Shown here: in pieces, positions 11,883 through 16,090 of the stretch
How positions within the stretch are numbered: position 1 is the first letter of the stretch
How the letters are laid out: the number at the start of each line of letters is the position of its first letter
Assembly (NCBI GenBank): GCA_015493625.1
Contig: WGCT01000564.1
Coordinates: forward strand, 1-20,996
Length of the DNA: 20,996 nucleotides
Direction of reading: 5' to 3'
DNA from: Draconibacterium sp.
Lineage (GTDB): Bacteria > Bacteroidota > Bacteroidia > Bacteroidales > Prolixibacteraceae
The notes under the pieces: generated by a model
Databases searched by the model: none
Seen by the model: the letters and a program-made list of their open reading frames with translations, nothing else
What the model was told of the DNA's origin: nothing
Position numbers and translations under genes: made by a program

Positions 11883-12256
11883 AAAAAATCGCTTTATTAT
11901 TTAGGTTTCAGATTGTATATACAGTTAACAGCCGTTTTTGTTTAATCCTATATTAATTTTCGTTGTTTAACTTATTGCTGCTAATTTAGACATATTTACA
12001 AAATAACCTTTTTTTTTAGCGACGAAATCCAGATACAGGAAGTTCCCAGATGTAGGAAGTTAATATTTGAGTAAATGTGGTTACACTTGCCGAACAGGAT
12101 AAAACCTGGCTTTGCGCAAGCTTTTGGTCATCCATTTTTATTGCGCTGAAAAAATTTGTGATTTTAGGGTGTGAAATTTCTGTTGTTAATAAAAAAATGG
12201 TGATTAAAAACCATATTTAATTATCTTTGGTCGAACTTCAGTGGTTAAGTTAGAAT
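11883..12256. promoter_or_regulatory. Divergent promoter region between tamB and dnaX
   Basis: This 374-base gap separates the divergent tamB and dnaX genes and holds no credible gene. For dnaX, TATCTTTG at 12222-12229 matches TAnnTTTG, 28 bases before the ATG, but no -33 element is obvious. A small inverted repeat (ATGGT at 12197-12201, ACCAT at 12210-12214) lies just upstream of that box. For tamB only a poor match is seen (TTATTTTG on the minus strand, about 12000-12007). The region also contains a palindrome TTGCGCAA at 12112-12119, with TTGCGC repeated at 12141-12146, and the tandem repeat listed separately. The nine T at 12009-12017 follow no hairpin. Confidence 0.55.
12029..12061. repeat. 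Tandem direct repeat, 16-base units with 17-base period
   Basis: Two copies of CCAGATacAGGAAGTT (12029-12044, and 12046-12061 with gt in place of ac) match at 14 of 16 positions. They lie about 195-228 bases before dnaX and 147-179 bases before tamB. They may be paired protein-binding sites or simply a small duplication; nothing in the sequence decides which. Confidence 0.6.
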
Positions 12257-13360
12257 ATGGAAAATTTTATTGTTTCAGCACGAAAATACAGGCCCGATAC
12301 ATTTGAATCGGTAATTGCACAAAAGGCAATAACTAACACGTTAAAGAATGCAATAAAGAGCAATCAACTTGCTCATGCATATTTGTTTTGTGGGCCGCGT
12401 GGCGTTGGAAAAACAACCTGTGCACGTATTTTTGCAAAAACCATAAATTGCAGTAATTTAACTTCCGAAACAGAAGCTTGTAACGAGTGCGAATCGTGTG
12501 TTTCGTTTAACAGCAGCCGCTCATTTAATATTCACGAATTGGATGCTGCTTCGAATAATTCAGTCGACGATATTCGGAATCTGACCGATCAAGTTCGTAT
12601 TCCTCCGCAAATGGGGAGATATAGTGTGTATATTATCGACGAGGTTCATATGCTGTCGGCGCAAGCTTTTAATGCATTTCTAAAAACACTTGAAGAGCCG
12701 CCAAATCATGCAATATTTATTTTGGCAACCACCGAAAAACATAAAATAATACCAACCATTTTATCGCGGTGTCAGATTTTTGATTTTAACCGGATTGGAG
12801 TTTCCGACATCACTTCGCATCTCGAATATGTTGCTAAAAGCGAAGGTGTTGAGGTTGAAAGTGAGGGGCTGAATGTGATTGCGCAAAAGGCCGACGGTGC
12901 AATGCGCGATGCACTCTCTATTTTCGATCAGATTGTAAGTTTCTCGGGAAAAAAAGTTACTTACAAAGATGTAATTACCAACCTGAATGTGTTGGATTAC
13001 GATTACTATTTCAAACTGGTCGACCAATTCTTAAAAAACGATGTTACTCAAGTATTGTTAACATTCGACGATATTTTAAGTCACGGTTTCGATGGTCACC
13101 ATTTTATTAATGGCCTGAGTAACCATTTTCGCGATTTGCTGGTTTGTAAAGACCCTGCAACAGTACAACTTTTAGAGGTTGGCGGCGAAATAAAAGAACG
13201 GTATAAACAGCAGGCCGGGTTGGCCGGCAGTGGCTTTTTGCTCGATGCATTGCAAATTAGTAACGAGTGCGATTACCAATATAAATTAAGTCAGAACAAA
13301 CGGCTGCTGGTTGAATTGGCAATAATTAGGATAGCACAGCTGACCTTAAAAAAAAAATAG
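12257..13360 (+). CDS. dnaX: DNA polymerase III gamma subunit (0-frame product of dnaX)
   Basis: AAA+ ATPase subunit of the clamp loader, which opens and places the sliding clamp at replication forks. The 0-frame gives 367 residues. Visible are Walker A GPRGVGKT (46-53), a zinc-binding set C65, C75, C78, C81, Walker B YIIDEVHM (125-132), sensor 1 ATTE (157-160), the SRC arginine finger (170-172), and the helical domain III ending in LLVELAIIRIAQL. The frame then reads TTA AAA AAA AAA TAG, so it stops straight after three lysines, at the boundary between the clamp-loader core and the tau-specific region. This matches the position where E. coli makes gamma. As a clamp-loader subunit this product would be complete. 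The ATG at 12257 is preceded by a -7-like box. Confidence 0.93.
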   Translation: MENFIVSARKYRPDTFESVIAQKAITNTLKNAIKSNQLAHAYLFCGPRGVGKTTCARIFAKTINCSNLTSETEACNECESCVSFNSSRSFNIHELDAASNNSVDDIRNLTDQVRIPPQMGRYSVYIIDEVHMLSAQAFNAFLKTLEEPPNHAIFILATTEKHKIIPTILSRCQIFDFNRIGVSDITSHLEYVAKSEGVEVESEGLNVIAQKADGAMRDALSIFDQIVSFSGKKVTYKDVITNLNVLDYDYYFKLVDQFLKNDVTQVLLTFDDILSHGFDGHHFINGLSNHFRDLLVCKDPATVQLLEVGGEIKERYKQQAGLAGSGFLLDALQISNECDYQYKLSQNKRLLVELAIIRIAQLTLKKK

Positions 13361-13382
13361 TTGACACATCGGAGAACGATGT
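13348..13382 (+). promoter_or_regulatory. dnaX: Probable recoding (-1 frameshift) site in dnaX
   Basis: Ten A (13348-13357) form a slippery run containing A AAA AAA, directly followed by the 0-frame TAG at 13358. Eight bases after the run begins a perfect 6-bp hairpin, ACATCG at 13366-13371 and CGATGT at 13377-13382, with loop GAGAA. A slippery run, a stop and a hairpin at this spacing is the E. coli dnaX layout. A Shine-Dalgarno-like AGGA at 13328-13331 is further upstream than the roughly 10 bases used in E. coli, so it may not contribute. RNA polymerase slippage on the A run, as in Thermus dnaX, is an alternative mechanism. Confidence 0.7.
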
Positions 13383-13992
13383 TTTGGAACCTATTTTTTC
13401 AGGAAAAGATTTACCCGAAGAGAGCACTACAAAAGAGAAAGTTGTTACTCAAACACCGCAGGCACCTGTTCGTAATGAACCTGAGCACCAGAAGCGCATT
13501 GTAAAACGAACGCCAAAAGCAATTCATACCCCATCGATAAAAGCGGCATTGAAAGGCGAATTTAAAGACGAAAAAGAGACTGTTTCTGCAATCGACCAGT
13601 TTAAGCAGCATACAAAAGCCGACGAAACCGAAGAGTTTACTGCTGCCGATTTAACTGTAAAGTGGAAAGAATATTTGGTGCGGCTCGATGATCGTCCTAA
13701 TTTACAGGCAACACTATCGAATGTCCCTGAACTAAAAGAGAATGCACAATTGTATTTGGAACTCGATAATTCCATTCAAAACGAATTAGTAAATTCGATT
13801 AAACCGCAGTTGGTTTCGTTTCTGCGCCGCGAGCTGAAAAACTCGAAAATAGAACTGGTAACAAAAGTTGCCGAGAAAGTGAAAAATAAAATTATTTATA
13901 CCGACACCGATAAATTTGAAGCGATGGCTAAGAAAAATCCCAGTCTTATAAAACTAAAACAGAAGTTTAATCTTGATTTTGGCGAAGTTTAA
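13357..13992 (+). CDS. dnaX: Tau-specific C-terminal part of dnaX, read after a -1 frameshift
   Basis: This frame continues dnaX one base back relative to the gamma frame. Shifting on the A run gives a joined protein of 578 residues (367 plus 211), a usual length for Bacteroidota DnaX. The first part is a low-complexity charged linker (about 13357-13650). It is followed by a conserved tau domain starting at WKEYLVRLDDRP and ending in FEAMAKKNPSLIKLKQKFNLDF, typical of Bacteroidota tau C-termini. That domain should contact the polymerase alpha subunit. No good start codon sits at its head; the TTG at 13384 has no supporting signal. It is therefore made by recoding, or the split is a sequencing error or mutation in the A run. 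Confidence 0.85.
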   Translation: MVDTSENDVLEPIFSGKDLPEESTTKEKVVTQTPQAPVRNEPEHQKRIVKRTPKAIHTPSIKAALKGEFKDEKETVSAIDQFKQHTKADETEEFTAADLTVKWKEYLVRLDDRPNLQATLSNVPELKENAQLYLELDNSIQNELVNSIKPQLVSFLRRELKNSKIELVTKVAEKVKNKIIYTDTDKFEAMAKKNPSLIKLKQKFNLDFGEV

Positions 13993-14021
13993 ATTTTAAC
14001 CTGAACTATTTTTAACCTGTT

Positions 14022-14564
14022 CTATTCCAACTCCTTTTCGAAAAAACTAAAATTTACTTTCCCGTAGTTTCTAATCTCCTTAAAACAGTTGTGTTTCGAA
14101 AAATTAAACTCTTTTGGATGTTCTAAAATAAAAAGTCCGTTTGGAGCAAGAATACCGGCATTAAGAATTGTGTCGGGGACATTCTCAAAGTTGCGAAGAT
14201 TAAATGGAGGATCGGCAAAAATAAAATTGAAATGAATTGGGCAGGTTTTTAAAAACCTGAAAACATCGGATTTAAATACTGTGGCGTTTTCAATTTTTAA
14301 TGTATCAATTACTTCTGTAATAAACCGGTAATGGTTAACGTCTGCCTCAACAAGGGTTGCCTCTTTACAGCCGCGGCTTAAAAACTCGTACCCCATACTT
14401 CCGGTTCCCGAAAAGAGGTCGAGTACCGTTTTATCTTCAAAATTATAACGGTTCTCGAGAATATTAAATAGCCCCTCCTTCGCAATATCGGTTGTAGGTC
14501 GTGCCTTAAACTTTTTATTCGGTCTAAAAATTCGTCCGCTGTATTTTCCTCCAACAATTCTCAT
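14022..14564 (-). CDS. rsmD: 16S rRNA (guanine-966 N2)-methyltransferase RsmD
   Basis: SAM-dependent methyltransferase of 180 residues that would methylate N2 of G966 in 16S rRNA during small-subunit assembly. It starts with the family signature MRIVGGKYSGR and then RPTTDIAKEGLFNIL. The SAM-binding motif I VLDLFSGTG is at about 47-55, the acidic motif VEAD at 72-75, and the catalytic motif FADPPF at 116-121, which fits base N-methylation. The length is typical. The ATG at 14564 lies 13 bases after the DUF3822 gene, and the gene converges on dnaX with a 29-base gap that holds no convincing terminator, only a 10-base direct repeat TTTTAACCTG (13994-14003 and 14010-14019). Confidence 0.92.
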   Translation of the reverse strand: MRIVGGKYSGRIFRPNKKFKARPTTDIAKEGLFNILENRYNFEDKTVLDLFSGTGSMGYEFLSRGCKEATLVEADVNHYRFITEVIDTLKIENATVFKSDVFRFLKTCPIHFNFIFADPPFNLRNFENVPDTILNAGILAPNGLFILEHPKEFNFSKHNCFKEIRNYGKVNFSFFEKELE

Positions 14565-16042: not shown

Positions 16043-16090
16043 TAAAAAAAAATAAATTAGCTTCGTTTACCGAAAGTTATTTTACCGAGT

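Follow-up and report, generated by a model that had tools for sequence, protein, structure and literature searches.

A ten-adenine tract between the gamma and tau frames of Draconibacterium dnaX, a probable slippage site kept across Bacteroidota

We analyzed a 20,996-nt stretch of DNA from Draconibacterium sp. (contig WGCT01000564.1), hereafter the window, in which dnaX is split between two overlapping reading frames that meet at a run of ten A. This run very probably makes the gene-reading machinery slip, giving a short and a long protein from one dnaX. Judging from the sequences compared here, we put at roughly three in four the probability that it is RNA polymerase that slips on the tract, so that mixed mRNAs yield both gamma and tau. 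A −1 ribosomal frameshift accounts for the pattern less well than polymerase slippage of the kind known from Thermus dnaX. We infer that the polymerase rather than the ribosome is the main slipper, and that the cell makes both products and needs each of them; ribosomes may take part, and in some relatives they may even do most of the slipping. A single dnaX set up for gamma and tau by means of an A run had been proposed from the window's sequence alone, and the comparison with relatives supports it.

The split dnaX gene and long runs in coding DNA

The gene occupies positions 12257–13992 of the plus strand, a gamma frame followed by a tau frame at −1 (Table 1). The gamma frame ends in TTA AAA AAA AAA TAG, and its residues 1–365 are covered by NCBIfam NF011531. 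Domain III (PF12169) falls just under the Pfam cut-off in this part (23.9 vs 24.4 bits). The sequence-only reading had placed the split at the end of domain III, leaving gamma as a clamp-loader core, and this is supported; its count of ten A, with tau one base back, was exact. The tract is the longest A or T run of the window. Stops follow at once, TAG at position +1 from the end of the run and TGA at position +5, so that the DNA reads A10-TAGTTGA.

Table 1. Features of the dnaX gene in the window
Feature	Position	Strand	Remarks
Gamma reading frame of dnaX, 367 aa: AAA+ ATPase, lid, domain III	12257–13360	+	Clamp-loader ATPase PF13177 and lid PF22608 both above the Pfam cut-off; NCBIfam NF011531
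A10 tract, putative slippage site at the gamma/tau junction	13348–13357	+	Exactly ten A; A9–A11 in 49/49 family genes scored
TAG, stop of the genomic (gamma) frame	13358–13360	+	TAG/TAA directly after the run in 41/49 family genes
TGA, third-frame stop	13362–13364	+	Makes the double stop TAGTTGA with TAG
6-bp hairpin, ACATCG (13366–13371)/CGATGT (13377–13382)	13366–13382	+	Starts 8 nt after the run; perfect pairing
Tau-specific C-terminal frame, −1 to gamma, 211 codons plus TAA	13357–13992	+	NF011531 match; homology to single-frame tau C-termini; pS/pN

The −1 frame is open as far as the TAA at 13990–13992, which gives a tau of 578 aa. Its translation is homologous to the C-termini of single-frame tau proteins and matches positions 430–612 of NF011531 (E = 8.3e-26, 90.9 bits), a score far lower than the whole-protein cut-off of 685 bits since only part of the protein is aligned. 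The C-terminal part (13384–13989) had no match in the Pfam copy searched; PF28557 is annotated on full-length relatives such as P0011 in the protein record listing. Purifying selection acts on the tau C-terminus, with pS of 0.205 against pN of 0.034 across L001 (the window) to L006. A search of the genome assembly (587 contigs, 94% complete) revealed no second dnaX, the other matches being short and weak.

Two further long runs of the window, A9 at 16044–16052 and T9 at 12009–12017, lie outside every open reading frame of at least 80 aa, in keeping with avoidance of such runs within genes. We also sampled 400 kb of a 5.6-Mb single-contig genome of the same genus, distinct from the window's own genome, with 263 long ORFs (327,528 nt). 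Two A runs of nine or more were observed against 26.8 expected from synonymous shuffling, each of them at the second codon of its ORF as called, and no T runs of that length against 8.0 expected. Depletion of long runs is a sign used for slippage-prone genomes, and the length at which selection shows varies, being nine in a large proportion of genomes; replication slippage could also cause such depletion (Baranov et al., PMC1088944; papers given here by PMC number are cited from excerpts).

The A tract and its frame across Bacteroidota

Relatives were collected at the level of genus, family, class, and phylum. All 37 genomes of the genus search had some match, weak only in G024 and split between contigs in G008. 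In the family, 130 of 140 genomes matched at 1e-60, and the open frame was at most 421 aa in 125 of the 130; DNA from 50 of these 130 genomes underlies the family counts. Five family genomes have a longer frame, three of them with A11 and tau in frame (L031, L172, L181); for the other two, the DNA of G111 (L186) reads gamma and that of G050 was not fetched. Genomes of at least 90% completeness were searched for the class (149, of which 147 matched) and the phylum (148, of which 146 matched). To these we added the best 80 of 594 named stretches and the DNA of 100 further genes. Eight of the 263 loci collected had fewer than 400 nt after the site and were dropped, leaving 255 scored genes, which are related by descent and not independent; L088/L232 and L102/L246 are apparently the same records, and the tree holds 253 different rows. 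The scored run was the longest A run 285–400 codons past the Walker motif, and the tau frame was the longest of the three frames after it.

Among the 30 genus loci read first (the window plus 29), 28 have A10, one has A9 (L023), and one has A11 with a single frame (L031). The 49 family genes scored comprise 43 with A10, five with A11, and one with A9; a fiftieth, L008, stands outside this count, with A10 and an end cut short by its contig. In none of the 255 genes does the stretch from the Walker motif to the junction region contain a further A run of nine or more. Because of this absence and the recurrence in 43 of 49 family genes, A10 at the junction goes beyond chance.

A run of at least nine A stands at the junction in 208 of the 255 genes: A9 in 27, A10 in 164, A11 in 15, and A12 in two, with no tract of exactly eight in the sample. 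By group, it is present in 49/49 family genes, 78/91 genes from other families of the class, 58/75 named loci of the class, and 23/40 genes from outside the class; counted by family, at least one gene with a tract occurs in 40 of 47 families inside the class and 10 of 23 outside it. The suggestion that the device is specific to this lineage is therefore not borne out. Genes that lack the tract number 13/91 in the other class families and 17/75 among the named class loci. Thirteen loci have no A run longer than five at the junction (L070, L075, L078, L080, L084, L099, L100, L101, L103, L116, L118, L129, L136); they are Bacteroidales-type, some labelled Bacteroides, Prevotellaceae, or Bacteroidaceae, and the tract seems to have been lost in them.

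While the tract stays, the frame in which the genome reads it does not. The genomic default among the 208 tract genes is tau in 109, gamma with tau at −1 in 93, and gamma with tau at +1 in six, and the tau C-terminus is recognizable downstream in every gamma-default gene (93/93 and 6/6). All 47 scored genes without a tract are single-frame tau. The statement in the sequence-only reading that Bacteroidota DnaX usually has a single frame is roughly half true: single-frame genes make up 156 of the 255, yet the tract persists in 109 of them. A FastTree phylogeny built from the ATPase portion requires no fewer than 30 changes of default frame, an approximate figure, as the program warned of long branches meeting; 30 shuffles of the labels gave 62–75 changes, and with well-supported branches alone the gamma label must still have changed at least 16 times.

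At the sequence level, the strongest case against a device run by ribosomes alone comes from the six +1 genes, although some may be assembly errors. Any of them may reflect a homopolymer error: L128 comes from a metagenome-assembled genome, and L164, L253, and L265 come from assemblies of 90–250 contigs. L023 (G007), the lone A9 among the 30 genus loci, lies in a single-contig genome and represents a genuine +1 case or else a homopolymer error.

Both non-tau frames are closed soon after the run. They stop within 24 nt in 187 of the 208 tract genes, compared with 20% at random codons, 15% and 20% after other A runs, and 5 of 47 genes that have no tract. The frame for which a −1 ribosomal shift has no need is itself closed within this distance in 97/109 tau-default genes and in 85/93 gamma genes with tau at −1. 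In the family, TAG or TAA, one base, and TGA or TAA follow the run in 41/49 genes. All 31 family genes that read TAGC continue with TGA, which fixes an alanine codon as GCT, a codon used for 320 of the 1,125 alanines encoded in the gamma part of the same genes; these 31 genes are related and do not represent 31 independent events.

RNA structure around the tract

The sequence-only reading had called for a comparison of relatives at the nucleotide level, in which the run and the stop turned out to be conserved and the hairpin did not. The perfect 6-bp hairpin that it noted 8 bases past the run is present in the window, but it does not hold as part of the device: among the 49 family genes folded, this stem occurs in L001 and L006 only, and it is probably without function. 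The window's own 50-nt fold after the run has a z score of −1.8. Across the family, the 50 nt after the run have a mean z of −0.24, as do control windows downstream, with 2/49 below −2 in both. The picture elsewhere is similar, with a mean z of −0.37 vs −0.13 in the control for the other gamma-default genes (n = 53; six vs four below −2) and −0.37 vs −0.32 for tau-default tract genes (n = 106; nine vs 12 below −2). Some single genes do fold well here (L031, z −3.1; L011, z −2.2), and in several congeners another short stem lies a little further downstream, for instance CAGGAT..ATCCTG in L013–L015. We therefore rejected a 3′ hairpin as a conserved stimulator, since folding after the run is about that of the downstream control window. 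Rfam gave no match to 12200–14100 at E values up to 1.

A second pairing brackets the tract itself. All six pairs of a stem, mostly CAGCTA/TAGCTG, form in 29 of the 49 family genes and are incomplete in the other 20. In the window, the corresponding bases (13337–13342 and 13358–13363) read CAGCTG/TAGTTG, with G-U pairs, and L006 has CAACTA/TAGTTG, one compensated pair. We do not claim this stem as a functional part. Coding together with the double stop can explain the pairing, which probably arises as their by-product.

On the 5′ side, stems of at least 6 bp abut the run in 15/208 genes vs 130/16,640 control positions, but stems of at least 4 bp show no clear excess (26/208 vs 1,787/16,640); taking one gene per family, abutting 5′ stems occur in 4/50 vs 29/4,000. 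The window's family has an abutting stem of at least 5 bp in 1/49 genes. The 40 nt before the run in the 159 genes outside the family have a mean z of −0.92, with 31 below −2, against −0.06 to −0.33 and six to 15 below −2 further upstream; with one gene per family, the values are −0.59 vs −0.16, with 2/50 vs 20/250 below −2. Inspection by eye of ATAGCACAGCTGACCTT upstream of the run, made without a scan, revealed no Shine-Dalgarno-like 5′ stimulator.

Some Flavobacteriaceae-type loci carry a perfect or near-perfect 8-bp stem within 20 nt 5′ of the run (L053, L123, and L142, among others). Such a stem, for example CTCCATCA..TGATGGAG, ends directly at the A10 whichever frame is the default. In 25 hand-picked loci of this type, 155 of the 200 cells of the 8-bp stem pair, where the best of 1,000 shuffles reached 154; several of the 25 are without the stem. 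It is reminiscent of a Roseiflexus IS, where slippage is stimulated by a stem in the nascent RNA (PMC5009743). As with the adjacent 5′ RNA stem-loop of that element, the stem in these dnaX genes, of up to 8 bp, stands directly 5′ of the run; however, the window's family hardly has one, and slippage in Roseiflexus takes place on a motif other than an A run (PMC5009743).

Proposed polymerase slippage, its rivals, and known systems

We propose that the ten T in the template strand would cause RNA polymerase to slip, yielding a mixed set of dnaX mRNAs. Messages with 10 A, or with another non-tau count such as 9 or 12, would end at the TAG or the following TGA and give gamma, a clamp-loader core that lacks the tau C-terminus. 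An extra A (11 in all), or a count of 8 or 14, would instead carry translation on into the tau C-terminus. In the A10 species, −1 slippage of ribosomes on A AAA AAA may contribute as well, and both mechanisms may act together. Polymerase slippage would spread the mRNAs over all three frames and hence predicts a stop in each non-tau frame, whereas a −1 ribosomal device needs only one.

The strongest rival, which we nonetheless consider unlikely, is a programmed −1 ribosomal frameshift, in which two tRNA-Lys would slip on A AAA AAA before the TAG, aided by a hairpin, and part of the ribosomes would make tau. Ribosomes are reported to slide on A runs (PMC4363877), and the window does have A AAA AAA followed by a stop, a perfect hairpin 8 nt downstream, and congeners with other short stems. 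The 3′ folding, however, equals the control in the family and differs little elsewhere, and Rfam offers no match. A −1 step is needed in 93 of the 99 gamma-default genes, the favored ribosomal direction, but insertion of an A by the polymerase gives the same bias. A seven-A heptamer would be enough for ribosomes, yet the shortest tract sampled has nine A, and the third frame is closed too. Furthermore, the six +1 genes cannot make tau by −1 slippage, and the tau C-terminus is homologous in all six. Two-ORF dnaX genes with seven or eight A have been reported in Chlorobium (PMC3711429), so some relatives may use ribosomes, and the lower limit of nine applies to this sample. Of the −1 frameshift on ten A first proposed for the window, then, the −1 step between gamma and tau is real, while the ribosomal mechanism is the weaker option, because the tract occurs in every phase, six genes need +1, the unneeded frame is closed, and all tracts have at least nine A.

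It is very improbable that gamma simply stops at the TAG and the tau C-terminus is made alone, as a separate protein, by re-initiation. The window has a TTG in the tau frame at 13384, 26 nt after the run, but across the 49 family genes the first tau-frame start lies anywhere from 17 to 341 nt after the run and is not conserved, and 109 relatives encode one fused tau. Still less credible is a miscounted A run in what is really one continuous tau frame, a caveat raised when the window was first read. Such errors exist, and L023 may be one, but all 49 family genes scored have A9–A11, the A10 genes among them including L016, L017, L020, and L024 from single-contig genomes; in addition, 367-aa proteins of 99% identity are encoded on other contigs (P0002–P0004), and TAG-N-TGA after the run is conserved. 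A broken gene that lost tau through a frameshift mutation would suit a downstream frame with no conserved start of its own, but we can practically dismiss it given the purifying selection on the tau C-terminus, the split gene kept throughout the family, and the lack of another dnaX in the 94%-complete assembly.

Returning to polymerase slippage, we lean, with less confidence than for the window itself, toward seeing slippage on 9–12 A as an old and widespread route to gamma and tau in Bacteroidota, with the tract and double stops kept and the default frame drifting freely. The frame could drift because the mRNA pool would hold all three frames whatever the genome says. The default would then have switched about 30 times, with genes that lack the tract left in the tau frame (47/47).

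Parts of this picture have precedents. A two-ORF dnaX with A10, and the idea of slippage in it, have been known since 2013, when Antonov et al. (PMC3711429) presented a new type of dnaX with two ORFs, comprising 17 genes in 12 genera. Twelve of the 17 had poly-A, nine of them with 10 A, and Thermus-like slippage was proposed; the genomes scanned included Bacteroidetes and Chlorobi. Three further genes had nine A (Chloroherpeton), eight A (Chlorobium chlorochromatii), and seven A (C. phaeobacteroides) (PMC3711429). Those genes share with the window adjacent ORFs for gamma and tau at −1 and A10 at the transition; they differ in including seven- and eight-A cases, and the excerpts of that paper make no mention of phase drift, double stops, or a survey of the phylum. 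The reversed arrangement also comes up in a review by Atkins et al., which treats Chlorobium phaeobacteroides as a ribosomal candidate with E. coli-like stimulators (PMC5009743). No paper on the wide tract or drifting frame was found by title and the start of abstracts in the literature searched, which excludes most subscription journals. The wide, phase-drifting pattern may be the new part.

Thermus dnaX slips at nine A (PMC1088944), and the RNA-DNA hybrid in Thermus polymerase is 9–10 bp (PMC5009743), about the tract length found in Bacteroidota dnaX. Thermus thermophilus shares with the window a single gene for gamma and tau, an A run that is unbroken over at least nine bases, and near stops in both non-tau frames. 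In Thermus, however, the DNA spells tau and slippage yields gamma, whereas the window's DNA spells gamma; its relatives show both defaults, as in the family A11 genes with tau in frame. E. coli dnaX resembles the window in its lysine-coding slip site, its downstream hairpin, and its production of gamma and tau from one gene, but there the site is A AAA AAG with a Shine-Dalgarno stimulator and gamma is the shifted product (PMC5009743, PMC3711429). In the window, A10 is followed by T, the hairpin is not conserved, and tau would be the shifted product.

The split also affects how DnaX appears in databases. Among the best 120 of 8,000 protein records, 116 are of 367–409 aa and four of 576–580 aa. 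Those nearest to the window that carry a genus name are Draconibacterium (87% and lower), which places the window in this genus or close to it. Records of 367 aa are named gamma/tau (e.g., P0024 and P0049), though their frame is without the tau C-terminus; because such records cover the gamma frame only, the tau end of this replication protein is missing from many of them.

The role of gamma has long been disputed in E. coli (PMC5009743). That a slip tract is kept over most of the class despite the drift of the frame suggests that both products are selected for there. Genes without the tract provide a natural comparison for their tract-bearing relatives, and the case offers a testable class of cellular genes whose frame would be set by RNA polymerase.
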